In this document: positions 1 through 37,767 of the stretch, in pieces | Layout: each line of letters starts with the position of its first letter | How positions within the stretch are numbered: the stretch's first letter is position 1 | NCBI GenBank assembly: GCA_009912575.1 | Contig: WNDP01000010.1 | Span: forward strand, 1 to 52,253 | DNA length: 52,253 nucleotides | Direction of reading: 5' to 3' | From: Acinetobacter bereziniae | GTDB taxonomy: Bacteria; Pseudomonadota; Gammaproteobacteria; Pseudomonadales; Moraxellaceae | The notes under the pieces: generated by a model | What the model saw: the letters and a program-made list of their open reading frames with translations, nothing else | Databases searched by the model: none | Told to the model about the DNA's origin: nothing | Position numbers and translations under genes: made by a program

Positions 1-197
1 CCATTAGCTGTTCCGCGATGAGTCAGGTTTATAGCCAGAAATTTGCGTGCGTTATTTGCATCATCAAAAAAAAGTTCATAAAAGTCGCCCATGCGATAGA
101 ACATTAACGAATGTGGATGCTGCATTTTTACTTTTAAATATTGTTGTATCATTGGGGTGTGAGAAGATAAGTCAGCTGTTATTTCTGTGTTATTCAT
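1..197 (-). CDS. mutS: DNA mismatch repair protein MutS, N-terminal fragment
   Basis: The first 65 codons of MutS, read leftward from an ATG at 197 and cut by the window edge. MutS binds mismatched DNA as a dimer and recruits MutL. The visible part is the start of the mismatch-binding domain I: a short variable lead, then HTPMIQQYL, an [15 protein letters not shown] block that carries the Phe-X-Glu mismatch-wedge residues (FYE), and LAINLTHRG. All are characteristic of the family. The gene heads away from the siderophore island. Its 5' end and upstream DNA recur in degraded form at 16966-17250. Family assignment is firm; nothing can be said about the rest of the protein. Confidence 0.93.
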
Positions 198-467
198 GTA
201 TATGAAATCCCTGAATTTAAGAAAAAATAAATTTAAAAAGAAGCCTGGCTGTCTAACCAAATGCAATTTTTCTGAGTAAATCTGAGCTACTCAAAGATAT
301 AGTATACCTTGAAGTGTACTTGGAGTTGTTGAAATAAAATCAACAAAGGCGAGGTGATCAGCTCAATTTCTCATAAGCTTCATCTTAGCAAATTGAGGCG
401 AATTAATAAAAAACAATCCTGAGCTGAATGGAGGAATAAACAGCAGATGTTTCTATGGAATAGATGG
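161..467 (+). repeat. Left copy of a diverged direct repeat (mutS 5' end plus upstream DNA)
   Basis: This segment covers the first ~12 codons of mutS and about 270 bases upstream. It matches 16966-17250 in the same orientation, with scattered substitutions and small indels. Shared landmarks in order are atttctgtg-tattca, a tttaagaaaaa-taaattta block, agaagcct, taaccaaat, aatctgagcta, agtatacct, gtgtactt, gaattaataaaaaa-like, and atcctga-ctgaatggag-aataaacagc. The stretch 198-558 holds no gene; 468-558 shows nothing recognisable beyond AT-rich spacer. Confidence 0.8.
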
Positions 468-558
468 TGAATATAGAAGTTTTATATGATGTAAAAATAG
501 TTGGTTTTCTAGGGCTAAAACAGTTTTAGTTTAAACCTAGAATTATAATTTTAAATAT

Positions 559-2604
559 CTACCACTTATAGTTAACTCTGAGGTCCACTGAGCGTCCAGT
601 TCCATAGTAACAATAGAAAGAACAAGCACTCACATATTTTTTATCTGTTAAATTTGTTGCATTGACTTGCACATTTAGTTGATCATTAAGTGGATAACTG
701 GCCATAGCATCCACTAGAGTATAGGAGTCAACTTTATAGTTTGGATAGTATTGTTCATCATTGGTGCTGCCTACATAACGCACACCAGCACCTAAACGAA
801 AACCATTCAAAAATGTTGAATCTGTAAATAAATAACTAAATTTAGCAGCAATTTGATCATTTGGGATTAATGGGCTACGAATGGTTTTTCCACCATTAAG
901 ATCTTGTTTTGAATCATTATGAGTATAGGCAAATTGGGTAGATAAATTATCTGTTAAATTTAAATCTGCTTGAAGTTCAACCCCTTTGTTTGTGCGCTTT
1001 CCTGCTTGTGATTGCACATTTGAAGCATCACTGACCAAAGCGTTTTTTTCAGTTAAATCAAAATATGCCAGTGTAATTTGTCCATTGATCCAATCTGGGG
1101 CGTATTTGACACCCGCTTCATATTGCTCTCCTTCATAAGGTTTATAAAATCGTCCTTGCTCATCTTTACCAGTAGAGGGTCTAAATGATGTGGAGTAATT
1201 CAAATAAGGTGAAAAACCCCCAAAGGTGCGTGATACATGATACCTGCATTATAACTAGTATGGTTGACATCATAAGCCTTGCTGTTATCAACAGTTGATT
1301 CTGCCTTATCATGGCGAATGCCAAGATTAACTTCTACGAGATCGTTAATAGTAGATTGATTAGCAAGATATAGACCTAATTGCTCTGTTTTTAGGTTATA
1401 TAGAGATCCTGACACAACAAAATTTGGTGTATGTACAGGATTGAACATATCAATTTGCGGTACGCTGCCAAATCCATTATTAACGCCATCTGTCTTATTT
1501 TTCTGATAATCAACACCGACCATAACTTTGTTTGAAATATTTCCAAAGTTCAAATCTTTGACAAGACGATTATCAATCGAGTAGGTATCAGAAGTACCAT
1601 TGGTATATGAATAGCCTCGATTTGCTAAGCGCGATTATTATCCGAGCCCCATGCAAATGTACTCAATTGATTTAGATCAAAGCGTCCCCAACGAAAATTC
1701 TGACTTGCAATCAATCCATTTTCAAACTCATGAGAAAATTCATAACCTATAGACGTTTGTTCAAGCTTTGAATAATCTCGATCAGGTTCACCCAAATTGG
1801 TTTTAGGGTCAATTTTACCATAAGGCGTATCTAAAACGGTTCCATACAACGGTAAGAAACCACTGGTAGGAACACCATCTTTTTTTAGAAAACTGGTTAA
1901 TAATGTAAAATGTGTGCGGTCAGTAATGTCCCACGCAAAACTTCGTGCGACATAATAATGGTCCATTTCTGAACCTTTTTGCTGACCATCTGCTTGACGG
2001 AACAAGCCGACCATACGATAACGGACTTCATCCGAGATTAAACCGCTATAATCTGCGCCAATTTCACGTTTATCTAAGCTTCCAACTGAATATGTAATTT
2101 CACCTTGTGGCTCTAATTTTGGACGTTTTGATACAAGATTAACATTACCCCCTGTTTGAGATGCTCCATAATTAAATGAGTTTGCACCTTTAACAATTTC
2201 TAAACGCTCCAAACAGTAAATTTCAGGTTCCCAAACAAAGAAACCATTAGGTGCTAAGGCTGTACCATCAAGGGTTTGGCTTGCATCAAAACCACGAATC
2301 TTGAACCATTGGAACTTATTGTCTTTACCATAAGGTTGGGCCAATATGCCAGCTTCGTAAAATAAAGCATTATCTAATTTATCTGCACCACTGTCTTTTA
2401 GTTGTTGCTCATCAATAATGCTACTAGATAATGGTTGCTTGAGTAATTCACTACCACTTTTTGAAGCTGATCCGACAACAACGATTGTTGGTAAAGACTT
2501 TGTATCTGCGACTGAAGTAGAGGATTCTTCAGCGTAAACTGAGGTTATCCCGTAGCATGAAATACATGCCATCATCAACACTAAAGGTTTAAGTTTTTTT
2601 TCAT
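559..2604 (-). pseudogene. TonB-dependent siderophore receptor broken by three single-base frameshifts
   Basis: An outer-membrane ferric-siderophore receptor in pieces: signal peptide plus plug (about 2604-1625), middle barrel (about 1625-1200) and C-terminal barrel ending VNYKW at 559. The plug shows IVVVGSASKSGS, RGFDASQTLDG, EIVKGANSFNYG and GGNVNLVSKRP. Adding one base restores each junction. (i) The A8 run after the ATG at 2604 (plus-strand T8, 2594-2601): with nine A the protein starts MKKKLKPLVLMMACISCYG, a good signal peptide. (ii) Near 1626-1629: restores NNRALANRGYSYTNG. (iii) The G5/T5 junction at 1212-1221: restores FSPYLNYSTSFRP. Length would be about 680 residues, normal for the family. 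It lies divergent from the siderophore operon, so it may be an alternative receptor for the same product. Whether it is a true pseudogene or has base-calling errors cannot be told from sequence alone. Confidence 0.82.
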
Positions 2605-2633
2605 GATTTTAGTTTGCTGGCATTTAAAAACCA

Positions 2634-2652
2634 GATAATAAATGAGAATCGA
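2634..2652 (-). promoter_or_regulatory. Possible weak Fur box upstream of the broken receptor
   Basis: GATAATAAATGAGAATCGA has a clear left half GATAAT and a weak right half GAGAATC-like. It lies 30 bases upstream of the receptor ATG at 2604. Iron control would be expected for such a gene, but the match is clearly poorer than the boxes at 3447 and 14173. Confidence 0.35.
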
Positions 2653-2730
2653 TACGTTTTGTACAAATTTTTATCTAAAATTATATTGATTTAAACACTA
2701 GTTTTTATTGATAGTTTTATCATTAAATTT

Positions 2731-2758
2731 AATATTATGAATTCAATATTATGAATTC
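2731..2758. repeat. Perfect 14-bp tandem duplication
   Basis: AATATTATGAATTC occurs twice head to tail, each copy containing an EcoRI-type palindrome. It lies in the spacer between the broken receptor and the siderophore operon. Probably slippage; no function is evident. Confidence 0.85.
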
Positions 2759-2961
2759 AAAAAATTTAATTGAAAAATGAGTAAATTAAAGAAATTACAT
2801 TCATTAAAGCCATCATGTTGAAGCATGACTATTATTCGCTTTTAAAGTAAATAACGACTTTTTAAGTCTTGTAAATATTCAGATGAGTTTAAATGTATTG
2901 TTGAATTTATTGTATCGAGAGTTGATTGAACTATAACTAAATCTAAACCACTCCCAATGAC

Positions 2962-3130
2962 TTAATTTTGTGTTTCTTCTAGTCTAATAAAATGTTGCAT
3001 TACATAATCATATTTATCTTTAAAAACATCCTTACCATTATCATCAATTTCTAGGTAAACAGATCTTTCCTTCTCTGATTTTTTAAGCTTTTGAGCAAAG
3101 TTTCTTCTACTAAGTTTATTCGTCACTTTT
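2962..3130 (-). pseudogene. MarR-type regulator C-terminal remnant (tentative)
   Basis: Read leftward, this stretch encodes about 50 residues without a stop and ends at a TAA at 2964-2962. It contains RSVYLEIDDNGKDVFKDKY followed by YVMQHFIRLEE. The pattern resembles the wing strand and following helix of MarR-family regulators (RSVYLxLTxxGxxxF). No start codon or recognition helix lies upstream, so it looks like the tail of a decayed gene. The rest of 2653-3446 shows no gene. Confidence 0.4.
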
Positions 3131-3446
3131 AATGCAATTCAATTTTTATAAAAGCTTATTAAAAAATTACAGTCGCTTATAAGGTTCTGCTCAATGTTAC
3201 CGCTATTCATTGGATTAAGAAGTTAGAAGAAAGTATGCAGAGGTGCAAATTTTAGTCTATTCATCATCATAAAATAATTGTGTCTAGATTGATTCTATTT
3301 AGGATAAATCTATTTAATTCAGTCTTTTATTGAAAAAAACATCAAAAAAATCTGAGTTGAAGCTTTTATTTTGCGTGATTTGAATTTTTTTACTGTGTGA
3401 AAGAAATTAAGAGTTGTTAAGCTGGAGTAATTTTTTATTATTGAAT
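3131..3446. other. Intergenic, no gene seen
   Basis: AT-rich spacer upstream of the siderophore operon. The reading frames crossing it have no recognisable protein features. Promoter elements for the operon probably lie at its right end, next to the Fur box. Confidence 0.5.
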
Positions 3447-3465
3447 ATAAGTAATAATCATTATC
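3447..3465 (+). promoter_or_regulatory. Fur box controlling the siderophore operon
   Basis: ATAAGTAATAATCATTATC matches the 19-base Fur consensus at 14 positions, including the full 12-base ATAATCATTATC. It ends 62 bases before the first start codon. A longer upstream reading frame would place the box inside coding sequence, which supports the later start at 3528. Confidence 0.85.
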
Positions 3466-3527
3466 ATTTGTATTTGAAATTAAGCGTGGATATTCTTTGT
3501 AGCTACTTATACCTCCACAGAGTAAAC

Positions 3528-5321
3528 ATGATGAGATCAATCACAAATAAAATTGCTTTACAGCATTTGATGAACTCATATCTACAAGAAACAGGTCATG
3601 GTCAATTTCTATCTCCAGCAGAACAATCCACAGATTTGATAAATAGAGGCAAGGGTAAAGTTCTACTGAGTATCCCTTTGCAAGCAATCAATGGGTTTCT
3701 TTATGCACCGATTGAATATTTTAGTCAGGTTGGGCGACACCGTTTTGCGGACTCGCCATGGGTCGAGCGTGAAGGGCAATATTTAGCACTTAGTCCAGTA
3801 AATATAGCGGCAAATTTACTGGAAAATTTAATTGAACAATCTAAAGGTCAGCAACTTGATGCATCTTCATTGCTGGAGTGTTGGATTCAGAGCCACAAGG
3901 CACTGCAACAATTTCTTTGTCATCGTGAACCAGATTTTGACCAAATCATAGCAAAACAGCAAAATTTTATTCAGAGTGAGCAGGCATTGGTACTTGGCCA
4001 CAGCATGCATCCGTCACCTAAAAGCCGTCAGGGTTTTGTTCAGGATGACTGGAAGATTTTTTCACCTGAAACACAGAATACTTTCAAAATGCAATTTTTA
4101 TATGTACACCCGGAACATATTGCTTCGGACAATGCACATAAAATTGATATTCCCACACAGTTTAAACATGATTTAGAGCCATATTTCAATGCATTTCACC
4201 GAGCAAAAATAGCCCAATTCCCTGACTATGCCTTGTTACCTTTACATCCATGGCAAGCACGTTACTTAAAGGATAAGGACTGGTATCAACAGCTTTTACA
4301 TGAAGAGAAATTGATTGATTTTGGTGCGCTAGGTTGGGACGTCAAGGCAACAACTTCAGTACGTACCCTGTACAGTGAGCAATCACCTTGGATGTTCAAG
4401 GCATCCATGACTGTGGCTGTGACTAATTCAGTTCGGGTAAATCTGTATAAGGAATGCCATCGTGGTTTGTTGAGTTATCAGCTGTGGCATGATGATTGTC
4501 TAAGAGAATTCAGGCAACGAAATCCAAACCTTCAAGCTTTGAGTGATCCTGCATGGATTGCATTGAAATTTGATGGTCAAGTACTGGATGAAACCATCTG
4601 TATTCTACGTGAAAATCCATTTAAAATCAGTGATGACGTGACTTGTATTGCTTCATTGTGTCAGGACCATCCTATATTGGCAAAAAATCGTTTCAGTGAA
4701 ATTTTTGCAGATATTTCAAAACAAACGGGTCAGTCTCAGTCACAAGTTGCTTTGCAATGGTTTGATCGTTTCCTAGAAATGACCATTCTGCCATTGATGG
4801 AGCTGTATCATGAATATGGAATGGCTTTTGAAGCACACCAACAGAATACCTTGATTGAACTGGAACAGGGTATGCCTAAAACAGTATGGTTTAGGGATAA
4901 TCAAGGATTTTATTATATCCGTGAGCTTGCCACAGAAATTTTAAAACATTATCCGACATTGGCAACAGATGGTCAGGCGGTGTGTCCATTGTCATTGGTA
5001 GATGAACGTTTCCGGTATTACTTTATTGGTAATACCTTATTTGGTTTGATTAATGCCATAGGAATGACAGGTGCTGTTAAGGAGCAACAATTAATTGAAA
5101 TGCTGCAATCCTACCTATTGCAGGCCTATCAGAAATATCCTCACAGCAATTTATTAAAGACTGTTTTACATCATGAAACCTTCCCTTATAAAGGCAATAT
5201 GATGACACGTCTGTATGAACTGGATGAGCTACAAGCTGACATTTCTCAGCAATCAATCTATGTCGATTTAAAAAATCCACTCTATGTTAGACAGTTGATT
5301 GAGGAGGCCGACTATGCTTGA
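3528..5321 (+). CDS. NIS siderophore synthetase (IucA/IucC family), first of three
   Basis: A 597-residue ATP-dependent synthetase that condenses a carboxylate (citrate or a citryl intermediate) with an amine or hydroxyl of a siderophore precursor in the cytoplasm. Family landmarks are in order: GHSMHPSPKSRQGF (ATP phosphate-binding segment), LPLHPWQ, TTSVRT, the MTVAVTNSVR strand, and AFEAHQQN in the C-terminal FhuF-like region. The family length is about 580-620. An upstream in-frame ATG at 3414 would add 38 residues across the Fur box and is rejected; ATG ATG at 3528/3531 starts MMRSITNK. It overlaps the monooxygenase gene by 8 bases, indicating a single transcript. The order synthetase, monooxygenase, MFS, two synthetases, reductase, RraA-like and acyltransferase resembles the acinetoferrin/baumannoferrin clusters of Acinetobacter. 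Confidence 0.92.
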   Translation: MMRSITNKIALQHLMNSYLQETGHGQFLSPAEQSTDLINRGKGKVLLSIPLQAINGFLYAPIEYFSQVGRHRFADSPWVEREGQYLALSPVNIAANLLENLIEQSKGQQLDASSLLECWIQSHKALQQFLCHREPDFDQIIAKQQNFIQSEQALVLGHSMHPSPKSRQGFVQDDWKIFSPETQNTFKMQFLYVHPEHIASDNAHKIDIPTQFKHDLEPYFNAFHRAKIAQFPDYALLPLHPWQARYLKDKDWYQQLLHEEKLIDFGALGWDVKATTSVRTLYSEQSPWMFKASMTVAVTNSVRVNLYKECHRGLLSYQLWHDDCLREFRQRNPNLQALSDPAWIALKFDGQVLDETICILRENPFKISDDVTCIASLCQDHPILAKNRFSEIFADISKQTGQSQSQVALQWFDRFLEMTILPLMELYHEYGMAFEAHQQNTLIELEQGMPKTVWFRDNQGFYYIRELATEILKHYPTLATDGQAVCPLSLVDERFRYYFIGNTLFGLINAIGMTGAVKEQQLIEMLQSYLLQAYQKYPHSNLLKTVLHHETFPYKGNMMTRLYELDELQADISQQSIYVDLKNPLYVRQLIEEADYA

Positions 5322-6711
5322 TTTCATCGGTGTTGGTCTGGGGCCATTTAATCTAAGTCTTGCTGCATTGGTGAATCAGCATGCTTCATTGAAGTATTGT
5401 TTCTTTGAAAAACGAGAAAGTTTTGACTGGCATGCAGGATTACAACTGCCAGGAGCGATGTTGCAGGTTCCTTTTATGGCTGATTTGGTCAGTCTGGTTG
5501 AGCCGACTAGCCCTTATAGTTTTCTAAACTATTTGAAGGCACAACAACGTCTATACAAGTTTTACTTCCGTGAAAATCTCTATATTCCACGCAAGGAATA
5601 TAACCATTATTGCCAGTGGGTTGTACAACAGTTGCATGATCTACATTTTGGTCAGCGGGTAGTAGATGTTGCTCCAATATCTGGAGGTTTTCAGGTGATT
5701 GCTGAACAGCGTGGACGATTGTCCATTCATCAGACCCGTAAACTGGTATTGGGTGTGGGAACAGTACCGCGATTACCCAAACCATTACAAATAATTTCAG
5801 AACAGACCGCATCTTGTCTGCACTCATCCAGCTATCTACAGCAGTGTAACGATAATCTGACTGGCAATGTGGTATTGATTGGTTCTGGTCAGTCTGCGGC
5901 GGAAATTTTTATTGATTTATTTGATCAGCAGTTTTCATCAGAAACAGGTAAACCGAGATTCCATTTATATTGGTTGACTCGCTCCGCAGGTTTTTCACCT
6001 ATGGAAAATACACCATTGGGTCTGGAAAGCTTTAGTCCAGACTACATGCGTTATTTCTATCATTTACCTGAAGCGCTTAAGGACACGCTGCCAACTGCAC
6101 AAGCCAACTTGTACAAGGGAATCAGTAGCAGAACCATTCAGAAAATCTATGAGCGTCTTTATCACCGCAGTATTGGACAAGCGGATACCTGTGTGACTAT
6201 TGCTGGCAACTATCAGTTGGAGAATGCACAGTTAAATGGTCCGAATAATATTCAACTTGAATTTTTACAAACCCAGCAACAGCAGATGTTGAAACTTCGA
6301 GCCAGTACTGTGATTGCAGCAACGGGTTATCAATATCCTGCACAGACGTTCCTGAATAAGCTAAATGATGGGATTGTATTAGATACCCAGCAACGCTGGA
6401 AAATTAGTGAACATCATCAACTGCAGTATCAGGGGGATGGTGAGATCTATATACAAAATACCAGCTTGCAGCATCATGGCGTTGGTACTCCAGATCTAGG
6501 ATTGGGTGCATTCCGTTCAGCACGGATTGCCAATCAAATTCTAAAAGAAAACTATTTTGATGTAGACGGAAAACAAGGTTTTCAGGATTTTCAGTTAAGT
6601 AGCCAGCCCTTAACGACTGAATTCCAGATCAATAACTCCCGAACAAATACAGTCACGCTACGTTCCTCTGGGAAAACTGATGATCAGTATTTAAAAGTCA
6701 TGAGCAAATAA
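5314..6711 (+). CDS. FAD-dependent amine N-monooxygenase of siderophore synthesis (IucD/SidA family)
   Basis: A 465-residue flavoprotein predicted to N-hydroxylate a diamine (1,3-diaminopropane in the acinetoferrin/baumannoferrin model) with NADPH and O2, the first committed step to a hydroxamate. The N-terminal FAD motif is FIGVGLGPFNLSLA (residues 4-17). The WHAGLQLPGAMLQVPFMADL block and the DPTSP-like EPTSPYSFLNYL are family hallmarks. VLIGSGQSAAEIF is the NADPH-binding Rossmann motif, and VIAATGY is the C-terminal ATG motif. The start is ATG 5314, with GAGGAGG about 7 bases upstream inside the end of the preceding gene; a TTG at 5299 is less likely. The substrate is inferred from cluster type, since no diaminobutyrate aminotransferase or decarboxylase lies in the window. 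Confidence 0.92.
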   Translation: MLDFIGVGLGPFNLSLAALVNQHASLKYCFFEKRESFDWHAGLQLPGAMLQVPFMADLVSLVEPTSPYSFLNYLKAQQRLYKFYFRENLYIPRKEYNHYCQWVVQQLHDLHFGQRVVDVAPISGGFQVIAEQRGRLSIHQTRKLVLGVGTVPRLPKPLQIISEQTASCLHSSSYLQQCNDNLTGNVVLIGSGQSAAEIFIDLFDQQFSSETGKPRFHLYWLTRSAGFSPMENTPLGLESFSPDYMRYFYHLPEALKDTLPTAQANLYKGISSRTIQKIYERLYHRSIGQADTCVTIAGNYQLENAQLNGPNNIQLEFLQTQQQQMLKLRASTVIAATGYQYPAQTFLNKLNDGIVLDTQQRWKISEHHQLQYQGDGEIYIQNTSLQHHGVGTPDLGLGAFRSARIANQILKENYFDVDGKQGFQDFQLSSQPLTTEFQINNSRTNTVTLRSSGKTDDQYLKVMSK

Positions 6712-6726
6712 CACAGGGGATAGGAG

Positions 6727-8178
6727 ATGGCTGAACAGCCACAACCACTGTTGCAGGTAGAAAATTCTGTACCTTCAGGGTTACAACGTTGGGTGATGAT
6801 CTGCGTAATGCTGGGAACGGGTACCGTCAGTATAAACAACAGTAGTTTTAACCCCGCTATTCCTCAGCTGATGCATGATTTTCAGATTAATGAAACAGCA
6901 GTTAGCTGGGTCATGGTTATTTTTCTGCTGAGTATGAGTCTGAGTCTATTGCTCACAGGTTATTTGAGTCAGAGATTTGGTAAACGTCAGGTATACCTGA
7001 CTGCGCTGACAGTCTTTGGTTTGAGCTCACTATACGGTGCGTTTGCAGGGCATTTTGAAACTGTACTGCTGGTTCGTGCCTTACAAGGTTTTGCAAGTGG
7101 ATTGATGATTCCCCTGTCATTGGGAATTATATTTATGGTAACTCCACGTGCGCAGCGGGGCAGTGCTACAGGATTATGGGGAGCCATGATCATGCTGACT
7201 TTGGCATGTGGCCCCATGCTGGGCGCACTGGTTTTGGTGTGGTGGAACTGGCAAGTGTTATTTTTATTGAATGTTCCACTGACGATTTGTGCATTGGTGA
7301 TGGGGCTACGATGGTTGCCGTCACAGCAGACTACGTTGAAATTGCTTCGTTTTGACTGGGGTGGTTTTGTAATGCTTGCTGTGGGTATTGTAGCTTTGTT
7401 ACTCAGTTTAAGTGGAATCCAGCAGCTGAGTGACATCCAAAGGTCTGAGTTTGTGCTGTTGTTCAGTATCGGCATTGCAGCATGTTGTGGCTTTTTCTGG
7501 TTTAGTCGTAATAAGCCCAATGCTTTAATTGACTGGCAACTGTTTACCAGTAGTGGTTTTAGCTACAGTGTGATTATTTCAGTTGTGCATACCATCGGAC
7601 TGTTTATTACCTTACTCCTGATCCCGCTACTGTTACAGAATACTTTAAAACTCAGTCCAGTGTGGACTGGATTCATCCTGATGAGCAGTGCACTGACCAC
7701 CAGTCTATGTAGTCAATGGGCAGGTAAATATCTCGATCAACATGGTGCCCGACAACTAATCTGTTTTGGTCTTGTGTTGACTGTTGCTGCCTTTGCTGGT
7801 CTGGCATTGATTCCGGGTACACATGTTATATCTCTCATGTTTTGTATGATCTTGCATGGGCTGGGATTTGGTTTGTCCTATATGCCAGCAACTACAGCTG
7901 GATTAAATAGTCTTGAAGATCAAGAACTGGTGACTCAGGGAGCGGCTGTTAATAATTTACTGCGCCGGATCTGCGCTGCAATTGCTGTCGTGATTGCTGC
8001 ACTCTATCTACAAATTCGTACACACAATATTTCATATTCACCAGAACTGGCAATTGCTCAAATTCATGCAATACGGGAACTGTTTTTGATCTGTGCGGGA
8101 GTGATGCTGTTGGCATTACCCGCCGCATGGAAGTTTCCCAGTCAGAAGCAAACGGACGTTTTGGTTCAAAATCAATAA
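6727..8178 (+). CDS. MFS transporter, DHA2 (EmrB/QacA) type, probable siderophore exporter
   Basis: A 483-residue inner-membrane protein with about 14 hydrophobic segments, typical of drug:H+ antiporter-2. Visible motifs are SWVMVIFLLSMSLSLLLTGYL (TM2), LSQRFGKRQVYLTAL (motif A between TM2 and TM3), RALQGFASGLMIPLSLG (motif B with its Arg) and LWGAMIMLTLACGPMLG (motif C, antiporter). It is co-directional with the biosynthetic genes, 15 bases after the monooxygenase and 12 bases before the second synthetase. The position suggests proton-driven export of the finished siderophore to the periplasm. Uptake of ferric complex is a less likely alternative. ATG 6727 is preceded by GGGGATAGGAG. Confidence 0.9.
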   Translation: MAEQPQPLLQVENSVPSGLQRWVMICVMLGTGTVSINNSSFNPAIPQLMHDFQINETAVSWVMVIFLLSMSLSLLLTGYLSQRFGKRQVYLTALTVFGLSSLYGAFAGHFETVLLVRALQGFASGLMIPLSLGIIFMVTPRAQRGSATGLWGAMIMLTLACGPMLGALVLVWWNWQVLFLLNVPLTICALVMGLRWLPSQQTTLKLLRFDWGGFVMLAVGIVALLLSLSGIQQLSDIQRSEFVLLFSIGIAACCGFFWFSRNKPNALIDWQLFTSSGFSYSVIISVVHTIGLFITLLLIPLLLQNTLKLSPVWTGFILMSSALTTSLCSQWAGKYLDQHGARQLICFGLVLTVAAFAGLALIPGTHVISLMFCMILHGLGFGLSYMPATTAGLNSLEDQELVTQGAAVNNLLRRICAAIAVVIAALYLQIRTHNISYSPELAIAQIHAIRELFLICAGVMLLALPAAWKFPSQKQTDVLVQNQ

Positions 8179-8190
8179 AGGTAAAAAATC

Positions 8191-10041: not shown

Positions 10042-10054
10042 GGGGAATAAACCA

Positions 10055-11965
10055 ATGAATACAATGGTGTTTTCGCCTACTGTTTCAGGACAGGTGATAT
10101 TGATGGATTTGGTCAATAGTCTACTTGCTGAGCAATATATTTTAGAATCGGAGGTCCTGACAAAGGATCAGGCTCAACGACTATGTATACAAAGATTTCA
10201 GCATGGATTTGAAACACTTTTTGATAGTTATAGCGCTTGGTCACATTTTGCTGTTTTATTTAATTCTGAACAGACAGCGTGTTTGATTCTACCGTTGAAA
10301 CAGGGTTTGAAGCAGCGTTGGCAGATGCATGTTGGAGTATCCATCTGTAAACTTAACATGGATGAAGCGAAGAATTACCATGTTCAGAAACTAAGCGCAT
10401 TACAGTTATTTGACTTCATGCAGCAATTACCGTGCTTCAACTCCGCTGATGCATCAAAATTGGCAGATTTTCGTGCAGATTTAAAACAAGCAATCCTACA
10501 GGCAGAATTGTCTCAGCAACATCAATTGTCCTCTTTAGCGTGGTTAAAGCAACATCCTGCAGACTTATTTATACAGCTGGAGCAGTATGCTGCTTTACGG
10601 GATCGTCCCTATCATCCGTTGGCCAAATTAAAAGACGGTTTTAGTCCTGATGAATATCAGTATTTCAGTCCTGAATTTGCTCAGGATATGGATGTTCACT
10701 GGGTTGCAGTAAATAAAGAAAAGTTGGTCTATGGGAAGGATATTACTGAGATCGATAGACAGCAACCTGCACGTATTTTTCTGAACGCTGAACAGTTCCT
10801 GATGTTAAAACAGGAATGTGATGACAAAGCACTGGGAGACGATTATTTGGCGATTCCCCTACATGCATGGCAGTTCAAACATGTGCTGTCTGGGAAATTT
10901 TCTGAGGAGTTGCAGCATAAGGACATTATCCCCTTAGCATTTCAGTCCAACGGCTGGTACGCCAGTTCGTCATTAAGAAGTCTACTTTCAGCGACACAGC
11001 CACAGGATAGTCTAAAACTACCACTTGCGGTGAAGTCACTGGGTTCATTGCGTTTTTTACCGATTGTCAAAATGATCAATGGGCAAAAGAATCAGCAACT
11101 GTTGCAGCTAGCTAAGCAAAAAGATGAGATTTTAAAAAAACGTCTTTGGCTATGTGATGAAAATCAATGGTGGGCTTATCTTCCTGAGCAACAGGAGAAT
11201 TTAACGCCAGATAATTTAATACTGTTCAACGAGCGGCCTATGCATCTCGCTGCACAGCGCCGTAGAATTCCTGCTGAGCTGTTACAAGCACCTTATCAGA
11301 TTATTCCTATGGCTAGCTTAGGGCAACTGATGGGCGGGCAGGGATGTGTATTTGATCTGATCCTAAAATGGCAAAATCTAACGGCTACACCGCAGCATGT
11401 CTGCAATATTTTTGCTGAATTATGCCGTGATTTCTTTGAGGTAAATTTGCGCCTGTTCCGTCTTGGTCTGATGGGCGAAATTCATGGTCAGAATATCTGT
11501 ATTGTGCTGGAACAGGGACAGTTTGCAGGTTTCATGCTCCGTGACCATGATTCCGTCCGAATTTATCAACCGTGGATGCAACAGCATGGCTTACCTGATC
11601 CTGAATATCTGAGTCCACATGATTTTCGTATTACCTTGTATCACGACAGTGTGGAAAGTTTGATTCTCTATCTACAGACACTCGGTATACAGGTCAATCT
11701 AGCCAGTATCTTGGAGACTGTTGCAGAGTTCTATCAGATTGACTCGGCTGATTTATGGCGCATTATGGCCCAGCAGTTACAGCAAGCGTTGAATGATGTG
11801 CCATTTACGGATACGGCCCGGACTGAATTAAAGCAGATTCTATTTGATAGTGAGTTGTGGCCATATAAGCAACTGATCCGTCCACTCCTTGAACAAGACA
11901 ATCGAGTAGGAAGTATGCCAAGCAGTATGGGAACTGTTCCGAATGTATTCAGGAGCATTGTTTAA
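10055..11965 (+). CDS. NIS siderophore synthetase (IucA/IucC family), third and most diverged
   Basis: A 636-residue IucA/IucC family protein. Its motifs are weaker than in the other two: RDRPYHPLAKLKDGF (first His of HPxHP replaced), IPLHAWQ in place of LPxHPWQ, SSSLRSL in place of SxRT, then MGEIHGQN and MLRDHDSVR, which are well kept. It may use a different carboxylate or amine, or act on an acylated intermediate. The start is ATG 10055 behind AGGGGGAAT; the longer in-frame start at 9962 would overlap the preceding gene through its repeat and is rejected. It is followed 71 bases later by the FhuF-like gene. Confidence 0.88.
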   Translation: MNTMVFSPTVSGQVILMDLVNSLLAEQYILESEVLTKDQAQRLCIQRFQHGFETLFDSYSAWSHFAVLFNSEQTACLILPLKQGLKQRWQMHVGVSICKLNMDEAKNYHVQKLSALQLFDFMQQLPCFNSADASKLADFRADLKQAILQAELSQQHQLSSLAWLKQHPADLFIQLEQYAALRDRPYHPLAKLKDGFSPDEYQYFSPEFAQDMDVHWVAVNKEKLVYGKDITEIDRQQPARIFLNAEQFLMLKQECDDKALGDDYLAIPLHAWQFKHVLSGKFSEELQHKDIIPLAFQSNGWYASSSLRSLLSATQPQDSLKLPLAVKSLGSLRFLPIVKMINGQKNQQLLQLAKQKDEILKKRLWLCDENQWWAYLPEQQENLTPDNLILFNERPMHLAAQRRRIPAELLQAPYQIIPMASLGQLMGGQGCVFDLILKWQNLTATPQHVCNIFAELCRDFFEVNLRLFRLGLMGEIHGQNICIVLEQGQFAGFMLRDHDSVRIYQPWMQQHGLPDPEYLSPHDFRITLYHDSVESLILYLQTLGIQVNLASILETVAEFYQIDSADLWRIMAQQLQQALNDVPFTDTARTELKQILFDSELWPYKQLIRPLLEQDNRVGSMPSSMGTVPNVFRSIV

Positions 11966-12036
11966 TTTCATGAATAGAGAAAACTCAGGCGTGCAGTCAA
12001 AGATTGCAGTATTGAATATTGGGGTCTGATTTTAAA

Positions 12037-12822
12037 ATGACAGAATCCGATATACCCATTCTTAAGCAGTTGCTGGCTGAACGCCTGAATATTCAATTTG
12101 ATGTGCTGCCAGTAGATGGCCAGCAGATAGTGAGTTTTACAGATCTGCTTAATCCCACCGTATGTCTGACAACATTAAACGATTTTGGTTCTCGTGTGGA
12201 TGCAGTGAATTTAACCTGTGCTGCATCCATGTTCATTAAATACTGGGCTGTTCCTCTGTTGTTTCCCTATTTTTATGCGCTGACTTCAGAGGAAATTGAT
12301 TTGCCATGGGACATTTCCTGTATTTCTACAGTATTACCTTCTGACTGGTGTTGGGACAGAACACTGCATCTGATTAATTTACCTCAATTACAGCTTGGTG
12401 TTGGTAGGCAACAGCAATCTTTTGAAGAATCTGTGCGATTCATACTGGATGACTTGCAAAAGTTGTTTGATGTTCTTGCTCGTTCAGGAAAAGTACAAAA
12501 ATTTTTGTTGTGGGAAAATACTGCATTACGAATTCTACAATTTTACGACATGATGAACAGAAAAGGAGGGGATCAAGCTTTACTCAGCCGTATCCAGTTT
12601 CAACGGCAGTTTTTGATAGATTTGCCTGCAGTTGATCTGGGTTTAAAACAGAATCCATTTTATTTGCTGGATCAGAGTAGGCAGCAATCGTCCACAACTT
12701 ATCAACGAAAAAAATGCTGCTTTTATTTTCAGTTACCTGAAGCACAAAAAGAATATTGTGCAAGCTGTCCATTACTGAGACAGGATGAACACAGAGGTCA
12801 ACACTCATGCAAGAGCAGTTAA
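12037..12822 (+). CDS. FhuF-like siderophore iron reductase
   Basis: A 261-residue protein whose C-terminus carries the paired cysteines of the FhuF family: KKCCFYFQL, then YCASCPLLRQ (CC-x12-C-x2-C, spacing slightly longer than E. coli FhuF). These ligate a [2Fe-2S] cluster that reduces hydroxamate-bound Fe3+ at the inner face of the cytoplasmic membrane and so releases iron. The N-terminal part (about 1-200) fits the FhuF-like domain, which is also found at the C-terminus of NIS synthetases. The start could be ATG 12037 or TTG 12019 (GGGG lies between them); ATG is preferred. It overlaps the next gene by 16 bases. Iron release by this protein would complete the uptake cycle. Confidence 0.85.
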   Translation: MTESDIPILKQLLAERLNIQFDVLPVDGQQIVSFTDLLNPTVCLTTLNDFGSRVDAVNLTCAASMFIKYWAVPLLFPYFYALTSEEIDLPWDISCISTVLPSDWCWDRTLHLINLPQLQLGVGRQQQSFEESVRFILDDLQKLFDVLARSGKVQKFLLWENTALRILQFYDMMNRKGGDQALLSRIQFQRQFLIDLPAVDLGLKQNPFYLLDQSRQQSSTTYQRKKCCFYFQLPEAQKEYCASCPLLRQDEHRGQHSCKSS

Positions 12823-13433
12823 ATAATTTAATTCAGAGCTATGCAGATATTGCCAGCTCAACCATTGGTCATGTACTGGACCAAGGGCACTTACCGCAGA
12901 TTCATGCGATTAACCAGATTGGGCATGTTGTGGGGCGTGTGCGAACGGCCACAGTACATTCAGTCAATGGTATGGCACTGCGGCAGGCTTTGTTAAACAG
13001 CCAGCCGGGTGATGTATTGGTTATTGATGCACGTCAGTTGGAACACCGTGCCTGCTGGGGAGAACAGCGGCATCGCGCTGCCATATTTCATCAGCTTGCT
13101 GCTGTAATCATATTGGGCGCAGTAACCGATGTAGTTGCTTTAAGAAACATGAAGGTCCCCGTTTTTGCTTCATCTGTCAGTTGCCTCACTACACGTCATC
13201 AGGGGGAAAGTGTGGTTGAGTTTGACCAGAAAATACAGATGGGTCATACCTGTATTTGCTCTGGTGACTTAATGGTTGGAGATGCTGATGGTGTGTTCAT
13301 TTTGAGTCAAGATATTGCCCAGCAATATCTAGGGCAGTTTCAGCAAATGGAAATCCAAGAGCGACTGAAGCGAGAACAATTTTTCAGCGAACATTCAGCT
13401 CAGGATTATTACCACTTAACTGCATCTGTATGA
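12807..13433 (+). CDS. RraA/HMG-aldolase-fold protein within the siderophore operon, catalytic motif altered
   Basis: A 208-residue member of the RraA-like superfamily (HMG/CHA aldolase, oxaloacetate decarboxylase, RNase E inhibitor RraA). Family features: VVGRVRTA near residue 45, QPGDVLVIDA, the AAVIILGAVTDV strand-loop, PVFAS and GDLMVGDADGVFIL. Active aldolases normally have a G-x-GE element and DGxxRD. Here these read WGEQ and LGAVTD, so the substrate-binding Arg is Thr and the preceding Asp is lost. Aldolase chemistry is therefore doubtful. Strict co-transcription (start inside fhuF-like, 21 bases to the acyltransferase) suggests a siderophore role, perhaps precursor handling or RNA-level control. 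The exact function is unknown. Confidence 0.75.
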   Translation: MQEQLNNLIQSYADIASSTIGHVLDQGHLPQIHAINQIGHVVGRVRTATVHSVNGMALRQALLNSQPGDVLVIDARQLEHRACWGEQRHRAAIFHQLAAVIILGAVTDVVALRNMKVPVFASSVSCLTTRHQGESVVEFDQKIQMGHTCICSGDLMVGDADGVFILSQDIAQQYLGQFQQMEIQERLKREQFFSEHSAQDYYHLTASV

Positions 13434-13454
13434 AATTGAATTGAGTAAATATTT

Positions 13455-14051
13455 ATGATGACATTATCTTCACAACTGCTGGATGAGTTCCATTACGAAG
13501 AAAGAGGAATCGCTTATGGATTAAGGGCTGTGCAACTACCACAGGATTTTCCCTTATTGTATAAATGGATGCATGAACCTCATGTGATTCCGCAGTGGCA
13601 ACTGAATAAACCAGAACTTGAACTGGCAGTTTATTTTGAAAAGATGATTTGTGATGATCATCAGCGCTTATTTATTATCACGATTGAACATACAGATGTG
13701 GGTTATCTTGAGATATATGAAGCCAAGCGTGATCGGCTGGCGCTTTATTATGACGCTGATGACTCTGATCTTGGCTGGCATATTTTACTCGGTGAAAAAG
13801 ATGTGCTTGGGCAAGGGCATTTTAGAGCCGTCATGCGCATGATGAGTTATTTTATTTTTGAAAATTCAGCTGCCAGTAAAATTGTGGGTGAGCCGGATGA
13901 AAATGTAAAATCCTATGCCTATATTGCAAAAGATATTGCCTATCAAGCGCAGAAGAAAATAAAGATGCTGGAAAAAACAGCAGTATTATACCATTGTTAT
14001 CGAAATGAATTTTATTCACTCTGTGGGCTTTATCAACAAACTCAGGAGTGA
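13455..14051 (+). CDS. GNAT-family siderophore acyltransferase (IucB/AlcB/RhbD type)
   Basis: A 198-residue acyl-CoA-dependent N-acyltransferase predicted to acylate the hydroxylamine made by the monooxygenase, giving the hydroxamate. Family features: KWMHEPHVIPQWQL near residues 36-50 (the HP.V..FW-type substrate segment), an acidic YLEIYEAKRDRLALYY strand, and the acetyl-CoA region GWHILLGEKDVLGQGHF with MSYFIFENS and KIVGEPDENVKSYAYI. The length is typical. It is the last gene of the co-directional operon; the receptor that follows has its own Fur box. In acinetoferrin-type molecules the acyl group is medium-chain and unsaturated, but sequence alone does not define the acyl donor. Confidence 0.88.
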   Translation: MMTLSSQLLDEFHYEERGIAYGLRAVQLPQDFPLLYKWMHEPHVIPQWQLNKPELELAVYFEKMICDDHQRLFIITIEHTDVGYLEIYEAKRDRLALYYDADDSDLGWHILLGEKDVLGQGHFRAVMRMMSYFIFENSAASKIVGEPDENVKSYAYIAKDIAYQAQKKIKMLEKTAVLYHCYRNEFYSLCGLYQQTQE

Positions 14052-14172
14052 AACGAGTCTAAAAAAAGAGTGTAATAAAATATAATAAATCAACAATCTA
14101 AATGTTTTTTTTATCGGCTATGCCGAGGCTAATGTGCTTCACCATCAGAATATTGTATTTTACATTATTAAT

Positions 14173-14191
14173 GCTAATGATTATTATTAGC
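14173..14191 (+). promoter_or_regulatory. Fur box upstream of the intact siderophore receptor
   Basis: GCTAATGATTATTATTAGC matches the 19-base Fur consensus at 15 positions and is itself nearly palindromic. It lies 34 bases before the receptor ATG, so the receptor can be transcribed separately from the biosynthetic operon under iron control. Confidence 0.85.
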
Positions 14192-14225
14192 GCTAAAATT
14201 CAGGCCTACAACTGAGGAAAACAGG

Positions 14226-16427
14226 ATGCGCCTTTCCCAATTCAGCTTATGTGTTTTGTCTATTGCAATTAGTGGTCAGTTATATGCACAGGATGAAATT
14301 TCAAATACTCAAACATCGGTTGGCAATGCTCAACAACAAGAACCTGTCCAGAAATTAGCACAGATTGTTATTAGTGCGACACGGTCAGAAAAGAGCATTG
14401 CAGACATTGCAGGGACTGTACAAAACATCAGCGGAGAAGAGGTACAAAAACAGGCTGGGGCAGGGCGAAAAGTGGCAGATGTTCTTGCTCAACTGGTTCC
14501 TTCGCTGGCGCCATCTAGTGGTACTGGAAGTAATTATGGCCAAACCATGCGAGGCAGAACTGTTTTGGTGATGATTGATGGTGTATCTCAGACAGGGTCG
14601 CGTGATCCTGCGCGCCAATTGAACAGTATTAGTCCGGGGATGATTGAAAGGATTGAGGTTATTTCAGGGGCAACCAGTATTTATGGATCTGGTGCAACGG
14701 GTGGGATTATCAATATTATTACCAAACGTGCTGACAAATCGAAACCACTGAGCTTTGAGACTAAATTGGGGATAACCTCTGCTGATAATTTCCGAGGAGA
14801 TGGTCTGGCTTATGAAGCGGGTCAGAGCGTTTCTTTCAGCAATGATAAAATGGATGGTTTCCTTGGTGCGAACTATACCAGCCGAGGATCATTGTTTGAT
14901 GCAAATGGGAATCGGATTGCAACTGAGCCTAATCAGACCAGCCGTAATGATACCGATACCTTAGACATAAATGGACGTCTGAATTTTAATTTAACTGACA
15001 CACAAAATTTGAGTTTTGGTGCACAGTATTACAAGGATAAGCAAGACACTCGTTATGTGCCTGATTATGGACCGAACTATACCATTGCTAAGGGCCCACA
15101 GTCTGAACGGGCAATCAAAGGGTTGGAATTAAGTAATCAACCATTTACAGATCGTTATGCCTTTAATACCCAATACCAAAATGAGGATGTATGGGGGCAG
15201 ACTGTAAATTTGGAAGCTTATTATAGAAATGAAAAAGGGCGTTTTTTCCCAGTTTATTCAGGTGGCGCTACAGTAAATCAATCAGAATATACGGTAGATG
15301 TGGCAGGAATGCGCTCAACAGTTCAGTCTGATTTTAAACTTGCAGAGCGTGATCTTAATCTAACCTATGGTCTAGATTATGATCGAGAAAAAGATACTCA
15401 GCATTATGATGTATTGTCTGTGAGTAATAATGGTATGGTTTATAAAGATACTGGCAGAAGGTTAGATGCTGGTCCTGATACCGTCATTCAGAACATCGGT
15501 GCTTTTTTACAGGCAGATTATCAACTTACGGATCGCTTTAATCTACAAGCAGGAACGCGCTATCAATATATCAAGGCAGATACAGCCGCCTATACGCCTT
15601 CTAGACAAACACAGAGTGTAGCAAGTGATTCCACAAATGCTGACAAGTTTTTGTTTAATTTAGGTGCAGTGTATAAGCTTACGGATAATCAGCAATTATT
15701 TGCTAATTTTTCTCAAGGTTTCAGTTATCCAGATGTGTTACGGATGTTACGTGATGTCTCCATTCTGACGGTATCAACTGCAAATATAGAACCCTTGACG
15801 GTTAATAGTTATGAACTGGGTTGGCGCTTACAAGATGATCAAAAACTTGATTTAGGAATTACTGGTTTCTATAACACATCAGATAAAGTCATTCAGTTCA
15901 ATGCGGATCGTTCAGTGAATATTGCTGATACTGATCAGCGTGTTTATGGTGCTGAAATGACTGCGGCATATCCAATTCTGGAAGATTTTAAAATTGGTGG
16001 TACGCTGGCATACACCCGTGGGCAATATAAAGATGCCGCTGGTAATTGGCGTGAGTTAAATGCCTATCAGGTGTCTCCAACGAAGGGAACTATTTTTGGT
16101 GAATGGAATAGTGACGATGGTTATGGATTCCGTGTACAGATGCTTGCTGTAAAAGGAACTGATAAAGCATTTGAAGATGATAAGGTTGCAGTGAACAGTG
16201 ATAAGGTGGTTCCAAACCGAGCCGCAAAAATAAAGGGCTATGCGATCATGGATACCTTAGTGAATTTTCCTGCGTATAAGGGAAGGGTAGATTTTGGAAT
16301 CTATAATGTGTGGAATAAAGACTACCGCACCGTTTATAGCCAACAGTCCGAAATTACTTTTTCACCTGTGTCTAGTATGCGAGCACAAGGTCGTACTTTT
16401 GGTTTGAGTTATACTTTTAATTATTAA
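14226..16427 (+). CDS. TonB-dependent siderophore receptor, intact
   Basis: A 733-residue outer-membrane receptor, full length. The signal peptide is residues 1-21 (cleavage after LYA). A likely TonB box is AQIVISATRSE (about 46-56). The plug has RGRTVLVMIDGVSQ, ERIEVISGATSIYGSGATGGIINIITKR, and the barrel ends in an aromatic C-terminus (RTFGLSYTFNY) as needed for Bam-dependent insertion. It directly follows the biosynthetic operon in the same orientation and is the best candidate to import the product. ATG 14226 is preceded by GAGGAAAACAGG. A long hairpin follows the stop. Confidence 0.93.
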   Translation: MRLSQFSLCVLSIAISGQLYAQDEISNTQTSVGNAQQQEPVQKLAQIVISATRSEKSIADIAGTVQNISGEEVQKQAGAGRKVADVLAQLVPSLAPSSGTGSNYGQTMRGRTVLVMIDGVSQTGSRDPARQLNSISPGMIERIEVISGATSIYGSGATGGIINIITKRADKSKPLSFETKLGITSADNFRGDGLAYEAGQSVSFSNDKMDGFLGANYTSRGSLFDANGNRIATEPNQTSRNDTDTLDINGRLNFNLTDTQNLSFGAQYYKDKQDTRYVPDYGPNYTIAKGPQSERAIKGLELSNQPFTDRYAFNTQYQNEDVWGQTVNLEAYYRNEKGRFFPVYSGGATVNQSEYTVDVAGMRSTVQSDFKLAERDLNLTYGLDYDREKDTQHYDVLSVSNNGMVYKDTGRRLDAGPDTVIQNIGAFLQADYQLTDRFNLQAGTRYQYIKADTAAYTPSRQTQSVASDSTNADKFLFNLGAVYKLTDNQQLFANFSQGFSYPDVLRMLRDVSILTVSTANIEPLTVNSYELGWRLQDDQKLDLGITGFYNTSDKVIQFNADRSVNIADTDQRVYGAEMTAAYPILEDFKIGGTLAYTRGQYKDAAGNWRELNAYQVSPTKGTIFGEWNSDDGYGFRVQMLAVKGTDKAFEDDKVAVNSDKVVPNRAAKIKGYAIMDTLVNFPAYKGRVDFGIYNVWNKDYRTVYSQQSEITFSPVSSMRAQGRTFGLSYTFNY

Positions 16428-16453
16428 TTATTAATTGATTTTATATAACCGTT

Positions 16454-16491
16454 GGTGTTGAGTGTTGAAAATTTGTTTCACATTCAACACC
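16454..16491 (+). terminator. Hairpin after the siderophore receptor
   Basis: GGTGTTGAGTGTTGAAA pairs with TTTCACATTCAACACC across a 5-base loop, with one bulge and one G-U pair. The stem is strong but lacks a following T-run, so it may stabilise the mRNA end or help Rho-dependent stopping. Confidence 0.6.
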
Positions 16492-16520
16492 GTAAACTTA
16501 AAGTAAAAACTATTTTATTT

Positions 16521-16566
16521 AATTACGAATGATCAGTAATATTGCTTGCGCTGATCGTTCGTAATT
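16521..16566. repeat. 16-bp inverted repeat with 14-base loop
   Basis: AATTACGAATGATCAG (16521-16536) and CTGATCGTTCGTAATT (16551-16566) are reverse complements except at one position. No T-run follows. It could be a second terminator, a protein-binding site, or an element end; nothing else in 16567-16965 suggests a gene. Confidence 0.7.
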
Positions 16567-16965
16567 TCTGCTATATGATAGTCAAAAAATTTACTTTTGC
16601 TTTTTTTTAAATAAAAAATTATTAAACGATAAGTACAGCGTAGCTGGCTAGAATATTTGAATTATTCAACAATCTTATGAGAGTGTAGAAGTACAAAGAG
16701 CTCGATAACTATGATGATATAAAAAGCGAATCAAACTCCGTTACGTGTAAATAATGGAATTGCCGAGCAAAAAATAACTAGAGACAAAGAACGATTCGAT
16801 AAAAAAAGAGGACTAGAATTTTTAACAACAATATATTTAATACTTAATTAGGGTTAACGTTATATCGAAGTGAAAATTAAATCAAAAAATTGAATTTTGC
16901 TTGAGTATGTTTTTTCAGTTTTTTAAAAAATTATTTAATATCATGTATTAATGCTATTTTTGGTC

Positions 16966-17250
16966 TTTGGGAATAAAAGTCTGCCACCATTTCTGTGCTA
17001 TTCAGGCATTTGAAATCTTCTTGATTTAAGAAAAATAAATTTAAAAGAAGCCTAGTGTTTTAACCAAATAAAATTCTTCTAAGTGAATCTGAGCTAATCA
17101 GAGATAAAGTATACCTAGACGTGTACTTATAGTTATAAAAATAAAAAAACAGGGTGATTACTAACAGCTGATAAGCACTTCTATCTGAGCAAATTTCAGA
17201 GAATTCATAAAAAATGATCCTGAACTGAATGGAGAAATAAACAGCGAAGA
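16966..17250 (+). repeat. Right copy of the mutS-upstream direct repeat
   Basis: A degraded copy of 161-467 in the same orientation (see that entry for shared landmarks). The mutS start codon equivalent and coding frame are lost. The two copies enclose the broken receptor, the siderophore operon and the intact receptor. Confidence 0.8.
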
Positions 17251-19226: not shown

Positions 19227-19517
19227 TTTTTTGTTTATATATTTATTTTGGATAAAATTTAAAGGTATTTTATTTTAAATTCATTTTTTCAATAAATTTA
19301 AGTAATAAGATTTTATTTTATTCCATTTTGATCGGAGTTAAATGAAAATTATTACGATGTAAATTATTTATTTTTTCTTAATTTAGTTGGGCGAAAATCG
19401 TTTAGTATGCATTTTTGTATTGTTTTTTTCTTATGTGATTTTATTGAATTAAGCGGCTTAGTTGTAAGTCTATCTGAAAAATCTTATAGTACAATATAAT
19501 TCAAGCTTGCATCTAAA
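19227..19517. other. AT-rich gap, no gene seen
   Basis: Spacer between the recombinase-like gene and IS remains. No coding signature, no clear terminator. Confidence 0.5.
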
Positions 19518-27514: not shown

Positions 27515-28216
27515 ATGAAAGAAAATCTATGTCGTGGATGTGACCTTATGGCGAATAAAAATAATCAGCCTTTAACCTTGGGACAACATCTTAACCTGAG
27601 TGAACTGGTAGGTTGCGAAGAATGTGATGCGGTTTATCGCAAAATTGATCTATTAACTCACGAGCGAGCTTATTGCACTTGTTGTGGGGCTGAACTGTAT
27701 CGTCGAACTCGCTCTTTTACGTCATTGTTGGCCTTGGTACTCACAGCATTGATTGTGTTTGTGATCGCCAATAGCTTTCCGATCGTCATTGTGGAATTAC
27801 AAGGCAATACCTCTCAAACCACGCTGATAGGTGCTGCATGGACCATGTTTCATATTGATCGTCCCTTTGTCGGGGTGCTCATTTTGATGACCACATTTGT
27901 TGTCCCTCTGATTGAGTTGTTATTGCTGAGTTATATTTTAACGAGTATTGGCCTGTTTAAACACAGACCTAAATTTCTAAGGTTGTCACTAAGAACTTTA
28001 TTTTTATTTCGAACCTGGGGAATGGTTGAAGTTTTTTTAATTGGTGTATTGGTGACATTGGTCAAACTGGTCGGCATGGTCACTGTTATTCCTGGTGTTG
28101 CCCTTTGGGCGTTTACGATTTTAAGTATTCTTTTGGTTTATATCGCTTCAGTCAAGATCAAAGATCTTTGGGATGAAGTGGATCGGAGCTTAGGTGATGC
28201 AAAACAATCATCATGA
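27515..28216 (+). CDS. pqiA: PqiA-type membrane protein, first half (PqiA N-terminal domain)
   Basis: A 233-residue inner-membrane protein of the paraquat-inducible A family, part of a PqiABC intermembrane lipid-transport system. It starts with a rubredoxin-like zinc motif pair (CEECDAVYRK and CTCCGAELYRR). Four hydrophobic segments follow: LLALVLTALIVFVIANSFPI, the region after GVLILMTTFVVPLIELLL, the VEVFLIGVLVTLVKL segment, and the terminal one. E. coli PqiA carries two such domains in one ~417-residue chain; here they are separate genes overlapping by 23 bases. The start may be ATG 27515 or ATG 27548 (MANKNNQ). No stress-type promoter could be identified. Confidence 0.85.
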   Translation: MKENLCRGCDLMANKNNQPLTLGQHLNLSELVGCEECDAVYRKIDLLTHERAYCTCCGAELYRRTRSFTSLLALVLTALIVFVIANSFPIVIVELQGNTSQTTLIGAAWTMFHIDRPFVGVLILMTTFVVPLIELLLLSYILTSIGLFKHRPKFLRLSLRTLFLFRTWGMVEVFLIGVLVTLVKLVGMVTVIPGVALWAFTILSILLVYIASVKIKDLWDEVDRSLGDAKQSS

Positions 28217-28973: not shown

Positions 28974-29010
28974 AAACTAAACCATATCCTCATGATTAAA
29001 TGAAAAAAGA

Positions 29011-34119: not shown

Positions 34120-34142
34120 AGAGATGCTTTTCAATAGTTTAA

Positions 34143-37758: not shown

Positions 37759-37767
37759 GAGGGTTAC

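Follow-up and report, generated by a model that had tools for sequence, protein, structure and literature searches.

The 52,253-base stretch of Acinetobacter bereziniae DNA analyzed here (the window; contig C2 of a 5.16 Mb assembly with 335 contigs) carries a predicted siderophore block between two diverged copies of one sequence, the start of the repair gene mutS together with the DNA upstream of it. Copies of this sequence, termed R in what follows, stand at module borders in the window, on a second contig of the same genome (C212) and at the mutS locus of a relative (G048), where R brackets another module. As the best explanation we propose, with a confidence that falls just short of even, that the region upstream of mutS is a hypervariable locus to which DNA has been added several times by recombination anchored in mutS, old mutS starts being left behind.

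The two copies in the window were recovered by blastn as a direct repeat (152-444 and 16960-17245, 76.8% identity over 297 columns, E 9e-50), and were also aligned with MAFFT. A preliminary description of this DNA had placed the pair at 161-467 and 16966-17250, in the same orientation, and had proposed to compare its alignment with shuffled sequence. The local score is 225, far above the maximum of 34 obtained in 500 dinucleotide shuffles (mean 21.6, standard deviation 3.0); the pair is real and lies essentially where it had been placed. Both copies, named R3 (left) and R' (right), are on the minus strand and consist of some 250 bases of upstream DNA plus roughly the first 15 mutS codons. They bracket the receptor and siderophore block at 446-16959, as had been claimed. 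The genome holds more than these two copies: a third, R1, is found at C212:27478-27823 (98%), and 61 bases of a further one, R2, at C212:15744-15804 (100%).

Neither copy in the window is attached to a complete gene. The left one belongs to a mutS fragment that the contig end cuts; when the 893-residue MutS of G048 was used as the query, C2 matched residues 2-74 and then ended. The sole full mutS found in the assembly is at C212:27702-30377, next to R1. Window bases 81-445 are 98% identical to this mutS region. The preliminary idea of an insertion beside mutS by recombination fits; the adjoining mutS is a fragment and not the working gene. In R', the mutS part ends after about 15 codons and the alignments show an altered start codon at 17003-17005, so that R' is not a working mutS start; judged from its sequence, it is a relic of one.

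We next consider the lineage of R'. In a tree of 26 rows, including 24 species alleles, R' falls on a long branch into a clade with R1, R3 and G048 (support 100/99.9); its position inside that clade is open (approximately unbiased test, p-AU 0.486 for a grouping with the own copies only). Identity of R' is 72.5% to R1, 71.9% to R3, 64.1% to G048 and at most 62.4% to other species. The grouping with this genome and G048 weakens the earlier suggestion that R' derives from the diverged mutS upstream region of a relative. We also compared columns with a genus consensus of at least 85% that R1, R3 and G048 all share. At these conserved columns R' differs in 20/117 cases vs. 168/2631 pooled for 22 other species alleles (p 9e-5), a rate that two of the 22 alleles (G080 and G003) reach as well. 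At the remaining columns R' differs in 43/120 cases vs. 1530/2638 pooled, and is below each of the 22 alleles. These figures suggest faster decay, or relaxed constraint, of R'.

Contig C212 displays a second stack of modules. Reading away from mutS, the order is mutS, R1, an adhesin block, R2, a hydroxyproline-type block, a 2-aminoethylphosphonate block and a 508-base match to the start of the siderophore operon. R1 is 98% identical to R3, and R2 forms with the mutS-proximal sequence a direct repeat of 116 bases and 92% identity (15689-15804 vs. 27423-27538); the 61 bases of R2 mentioned above are identical to window 385-445. The adhesin block includes an AraC-type regulator, an amidase, an OmpW-like protein, two YadA-type open reading frames (ORFs), an OmpA/BamE protein and TetR, and has two insertion sequence (IS)-like pieces, 75% alike, inside its two ends. 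The hydroxyproline-type block consists of proline-racemase family, OCD family, gltP and AraC-type genes. Within it, C212 ~10800-15800 (L025 1801-6801) is 94-99% identical to G048, the preceding kilobase being at the background level of 86-87%; perhaps, to judge from these identities, a recent exchange took place inside the block. R1 and R2 of C212 are at about equal distance from the mutS-proximal copy of G048 (87.2% and 89.7%), and this near-equality does not decide whether the mutS end of C212 was newly imported.

The 508 bases at the end of C212 match window 3638-3131 at 97.8%, and the last 127 of them, the left end of the contig, are identical to window 3512-3638. Exactly 127 bases are also shared by the other end of C212 with C33:1-127 and with C322:19068-19194, and 127 looks like the word length of the assembler. 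The exact overlap means that in the assembly two different left flanks lead to one siderophore operon, and the left junction of the siderophore block is uncertain. At the right end of C212, about 211 bases recur (98-100%) at 33 places in 32 other contigs, at least 14 times at the first base of the contig; this stretch is probably a mobile-element terminus at which the assembly was interrupted.

The genome G048, the closest relative by mutS, shows the same locus with other contents. Two copies of R in direct orientation (135 columns, 97%) stand one on either side of its hydroxyproline block. The outer copy continues into an extension which also adjoins R1 in C212 and mutS in G136 and G113. Since the extension is kept there, the outer copy seems to be the older of the two junctions, and little recipient DNA seems to have been lost at it. 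Homology runs 50-300 bases beyond window position 445 in C212, G048, G136 and G113, which weakens the candidacy of that position as a special breakpoint. At the far side, pqiB of G048 (C6:34100-35758) lies 33 kb upstream of mutS (C6:68497-71175), and window 27431-41378 matches C6:20000-39999 in eight pieces of 67-91% identity, mostly in order, with 33493-35311 placed differently. From this correspondence we assign C2 to the distal part of the mutS upstream region. Between both flanks, C6:40000-59900 has no match to the window or to C212, G048 filling the middle with other genes. In G053, pqiB is 22 kb upstream of mutS in the same orientation, and in G109 the distance is 75 kb.

To see how common such repeats are, 36 mutS loci with 3.9-18.9 kb of upstream DNA (C212, G048 and 34 others) were each searched with their own R. 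The set is not random, since it comprises mainly loci with mutS upstream DNA matching R3 or R', with high-ranking mutS, or from carriers of the siderophore gene. A second copy of the own R was found in two of the 36, C212 and G048, and none in the other 34; the copies of G048 bracket another module, and relatives that lack the island and keep both copies were not seen. When window 160-560 was compared with 100 genomes of the genus (own included, six candidates scored per genome), 23 gave a match, and separate copies occurred in the own genome and G048 only; four other genomes of the 100 showed two neighbouring pieces of one place. The same two loci are those which contain gltP (2/36), and the gltP' of the window is perhaps a remnant of an older mutS-R-gltP arrangement. 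The repeats had been viewed as marking the limits of the siderophore island; because similar ones border other modules in C212 and G048, they rather mark a locus that has been used repeatedly. With respect to R itself, no conserved RNA family was found there by Rfam at the gathering threshold, and a promoter and terminator scan of window 1-600 gave a single promoter-like site, located outside R, whereas shuffled sequences gave more.

For the siderophore unit, collinearity with G079 (91%) covers window 3225-16469 and goes no further, so that the broken receptor (559-2581) and the AT-rich spacer lie outside the shared unit. The repeats do bracket the block, but as limits of the island they are too wide for the unit common to relatives. 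Its genes encode three IucA/IucC-type synthetases, an N-monooxygenase, an MFS transporter, an FhuF_C protein, an RraA-like protein, an acetyltransferase and a TonB receptor. The gene at 8191-10041 has counterparts in G079, G137 and G007 with 93-94% protein identity, and at E 1e-150 or better the siderophore gene is present in 21/176 genomes, own included. In G130 this gene is found upstream of mutS at a distance of 9.4 kb, with the same orientation and 73% DNA identity in the first piece, copA- and cueR-like ORFs (named by eye) being located between both genes. In G011, G155, G066 and G052 it is located downstream of mutS at 21-25 kb; the distance is 163 kb in G079 and hundreds of kb in G007, G010, G017, G021, G070 and G085; in G137, G100, G154, G104, G175, G142, G091 and the own genome it is on a different contig from the full mutS. 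These positions cover all carriers but G036. The unit occupies several places, and adjoins mutS in the own genome and in G130. In G137 and G007 (loci L162 and L163), the receptor gene is inverted with respect to the window (14364-16181) and only 69% identical, the operon being at 90-91%.

The unit resembles the baumannoferrin (bfn) cluster of A. baumannii as described in the consulted part of PMC10483418, which likewise has synthetases, a monooxygenase, an MFS transporter, a 2Fe-2S protein, an RraA-like protein, a TonB receptor and an acetyltransferase. It differs in that, by eye, no plausible ORF of at least 80 aa remains here for bfnI, bfnJ and bfnK. The match is one of gene names and kinds, and the siderophore is a predicted product.

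Under the explanation that we put first, the DNA between mutS and the pqi block would be a hypervariable locus, filled in this Acinetobacter lineage by additive recombination. The incoming DNA would be mutS, or the mutS upstream region, joined to a foreign module. On one side it would recombine by homology with the resident mutS, and on the other it would enter by an illegitimate joint near the previous mutS start. The module just gained would then adjoin a whole mutS, and the earlier start with its upstream region would stay behind the module as a scar (R', R3, R2 of C212 and R2 of G048). The acquired blocks adjoin a copy of mutS or of its upstream region, that is, they have homology to the recipient on one side. 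The cut points near the mutS start vary: R' is cut at about codon 15, R3 at codon 65 or beyond, R2 of C212 at about -190 and R2 of G048 at about -167. A whole mutS on top and variously cut starts at the module borders would result because homology acts on one side and an illegitimate joint on the other. One-sided recombination of this type is reported in A. baylyi and two other species, with 3-10 bases of microhomology at the illegitimate joint (PMC3240628, as excerpted). The copies, their places at module borders, the lineage of R', the truncation of R' and R3 in this assembly and the occurrence of other modules at the locus in a relative are observed; a one-sided mechanism anchored by homology, transformation as the route of uptake and the sequence of the events are inferred.

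Several observations weigh against this explanation. The published events average, in the same excerpt, about 1 kb gained and 1 kb lost, and the blocks here are of ~6-16 kb. Neither a donor nor an empty site in the same species was found. pqiB was found in 63/176 genomes, and in most of those with both genes placed it is, by eye, far from mutS or on another contig. The two copies of G048 are 97% alike vs. a background of 86-87%, which requires exchange between the copies or a recent event. The left copy R3 stands at a dead end of its contig, and window bases 1-80 are oddly diverged, being only 81% identical to the C212 mutS region with several amino-acid changes; window 1-135 matches C2 itself and C212 (89%) and nothing else. 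Finally, the faster decay of R' is not borne out within its own clade. The pair R1/G048, functional by position, differs at 11/133 conserved and 43/172 other columns; the proportion of changes that fall on conserved columns does not differ significantly between R' and this pair (p 0.21); mismatches to the genus consensus are all close (37/153 in R', 36/160 in G048, 29/160 in R1).

The main rival, fairly unlikely in our view, is that the direct repeats were made by single-crossover (Campbell-type) insertion of a circle, or by a merodiploid-like tandem duplication, R being the homology used. The pairs of C212 and G048 (116 and 135 columns, 92% and 97%) are direct repeats as such events would leave, and the high identity of the G048 pair above its background points to exchange between copies. 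C212 and C2, on separate contigs, both hold a mutS start and a siderophore start; placed in the order C212-then-C2 they would form a tandem duplication spanning mutS to the siderophore operon start, and transformation is reported to make tandem duplications bordered by repeats (Johnston 2013, PMC3784515, as excerpted). However, a crossover in R is expected to yield two near-identical full copies at birth, and R3 and R' are 77% identical with differing cut points; moreover, the merodiploid duplications in that excerpt are of ~100-900 kb. Another alternative concerns the left copy only and is compatible with mutS-anchored addition for the other copies: window 1-3511, with R3 and the broken receptor, might be a branch outside the chromosome arrangement of C212, either a variant of a subpopulation or an assembly join. 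C212 ends with the 127 bases of window 3512-3638, the assembler's word length by the overlaps with C33 and C322, and at window base 1 the contig breaks off in a dead end, with a sequence that no other contig contains. A second strain, on the other hand, was not seen. Besides the C2 mutS fragment and the right-end repeat of C212, no near-identical second copy was found of the 9.1 kb mutS side or of the 14.5 kb pqi side (40 of 151 and 40 of 109 first-look candidates scored), and full mutS, the siderophore gene and pqiB are each single in the assembly; a mixture of two strains is unsupported as a general explanation. The 2% difference between R3 and R1 exceeds what a mere clone variant would show, and R', R2 of C212 and R2 of G048 are independent of this branch. 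We consider it on balance unlikely, though a serious prospect for R3.

That R' is a mutS upstream allele of another species which arrived with the island appears improbable. Its divergence would suit another species, and the in-clade control does not show faster decay; yet R' is closest to R1 and groups with the own/G048 clade, has lost its start codon and ends its mutS part after about 15 codons. An unsampled sister species is a possible source. Quite improbable, in our judgement, is that the relic starts record repeated loss and rescue of mutS, with mutator phases in which mutS was broken and barriers to diverged DNA were relaxed. A whole mutS from another strain would then have ended each mutator phase and dragged in its neighbour module, the dead start remaining as a scar, and the region would document mutator episodes layer by layer. 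Denamur is said to have worked on mutS transfer, and Young and Ornston reportedly on mutS of A. baylyi. Very improbable is that R is the attachment site (att) of a site-specific integrase, the repeats being attL and attR of islands. Direct repeats do flank modules at one and the same chromosomal site in two genomes, but the copies are 77-97% alike with differing cut points, and not near-identical with fixed ends. No integrase was found among the proteins of 11 of the 12 presumed genes in 446-16959 and 17 C212 proteins (L025:969-1505, gltP of C212 and the module proteins of G048 stood outside the scan), and the only recombinase-like ORF (18639-19226) lies outside the block and is of a small resolvase type; with protein scans and uneven copy ends both against it, this explanation was rejected. 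A plasmid vehicle was also rejected: window 1-20300 matched 56 of 72,556 plasmid records, none holding 80% of the query. The 20 matches listed all fall within 19503-19899, several of them annotated as IS5 transposase, and the other 36 records include 23 with a best identity of 80-90%. As for an IS-bounded composite transposon in the window, the IS5-type remnant lies at 19503-19899 and no IS was found at 446 or 16959. For the adhesin block of C212, with its IS-like pieces near both ends, such a structure is possible.

Coordinates of the features discussed, in window positions (strand "." where none is assigned).
Feature	Position	Strand	Basis
mutS' (mutS 5' fragment, ~65 codons, cut by contig end)	1..197	-	full mutS elsewhere; translation; identity to own mutS region
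R3, left copy (first mutS codons and mutS upstream region)	152..445	-	blastn, alignments, tree
Block between R3 and R' (broken receptor, siderophore operon, receptor, AT-rich spacer)	446..16959	.	ORFs, blastn
Broken TonB-dependent receptor, three ORF pieces	559..2581	-	ORFs; Pfam Plug and b-barrel on two pieces; third (1200-1553) outside scan
Baumannoferrin-type siderophore unit (predicted), common to G079	3225..16469	+	91% to G079 over 13.2 kb; Pfam; gene list
127-base exact overlap with C212 left end	3512..3638	+	sequence comparison
AT-rich spacer (25.7% GC) between siderophore unit and R'	16470..16959	.	base composition
R', right copy (truncated mutS start, ~15 codons, and upstream region)	16960..17248	-	blastn, alignments, tree
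gltP' (Na/dicarboxylate symporter family)	20272..21507	+	88% / 86% aa identity to gltP of C212 / G048 hydroxyproline modules
pqiAB-type block (name by eye), far flank of variable region	27515..31361	+	same orientation upstream of mutS in G048

Some further features of the window were noted. The recombinase-like ORF at 18639-19226 has the Pfam domains Resolvase and HTH_7, and carries Asn at the expected position of the catalytic serine. An IS5-type remnant is located at 19503-19899. The sole Rfam match in the window is a fluoride riboswitch at 37762-37829 on the minus strand (RF01734, 42.4 bits), and the ORF behind it (37252-37632, minus strand) is, by eye, CrcB/Fluc channel-like. The right contig end (52015-52253) is repeated in C212 and, by its terminal bases, presumably represents an IS end.

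If the proposed explanation is true, the start of a conserved repair gene serves as an anchor on which accessory modules pile up, and the leftover starts give a readable order of events. One-sided recombination, which is reported in Acinetobacter transformation experiments, would be traceable in natural genomes, and the locus would offer a test of whether neighbours of mutS travel with its rescue. Three known systems come close. Homology-facilitated illegitimate recombination in Acinetobacter baylyi, S. pneumoniae and P. stutzeri shares the one-sided homology beside foreign DNA and the illegitimate joint opposite (PMC3240628); gain and loss are of ~1 kb in the excerpted text, whereas here blocks of ~6-16 kb appear to have been added repeatedly at one locus with relics left. 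Merodiploids from transformation of Streptococcus pneumoniae share the repeat-bordered duplications (PMC3784515), but in the part consulted the repeats are IS-derived and the duplications span 100-900 kb, while here the gene's own start is the repeat and the modules differ. Among the titles returned by a non-exhaustive literature search, none deals with relic mutS starts that separate islands in Acinetobacter. The enteric mutS-rpoS hypervariable region, in another genus, is likewise mosaic accessory DNA beside mutS shaped by horizontal exchange, and the consulted portion of that paper (PMC4209514) makes no mention of relic mutS starts between modules. Variable accessory DNA beside mutS is thus already known from enteric bacteria.

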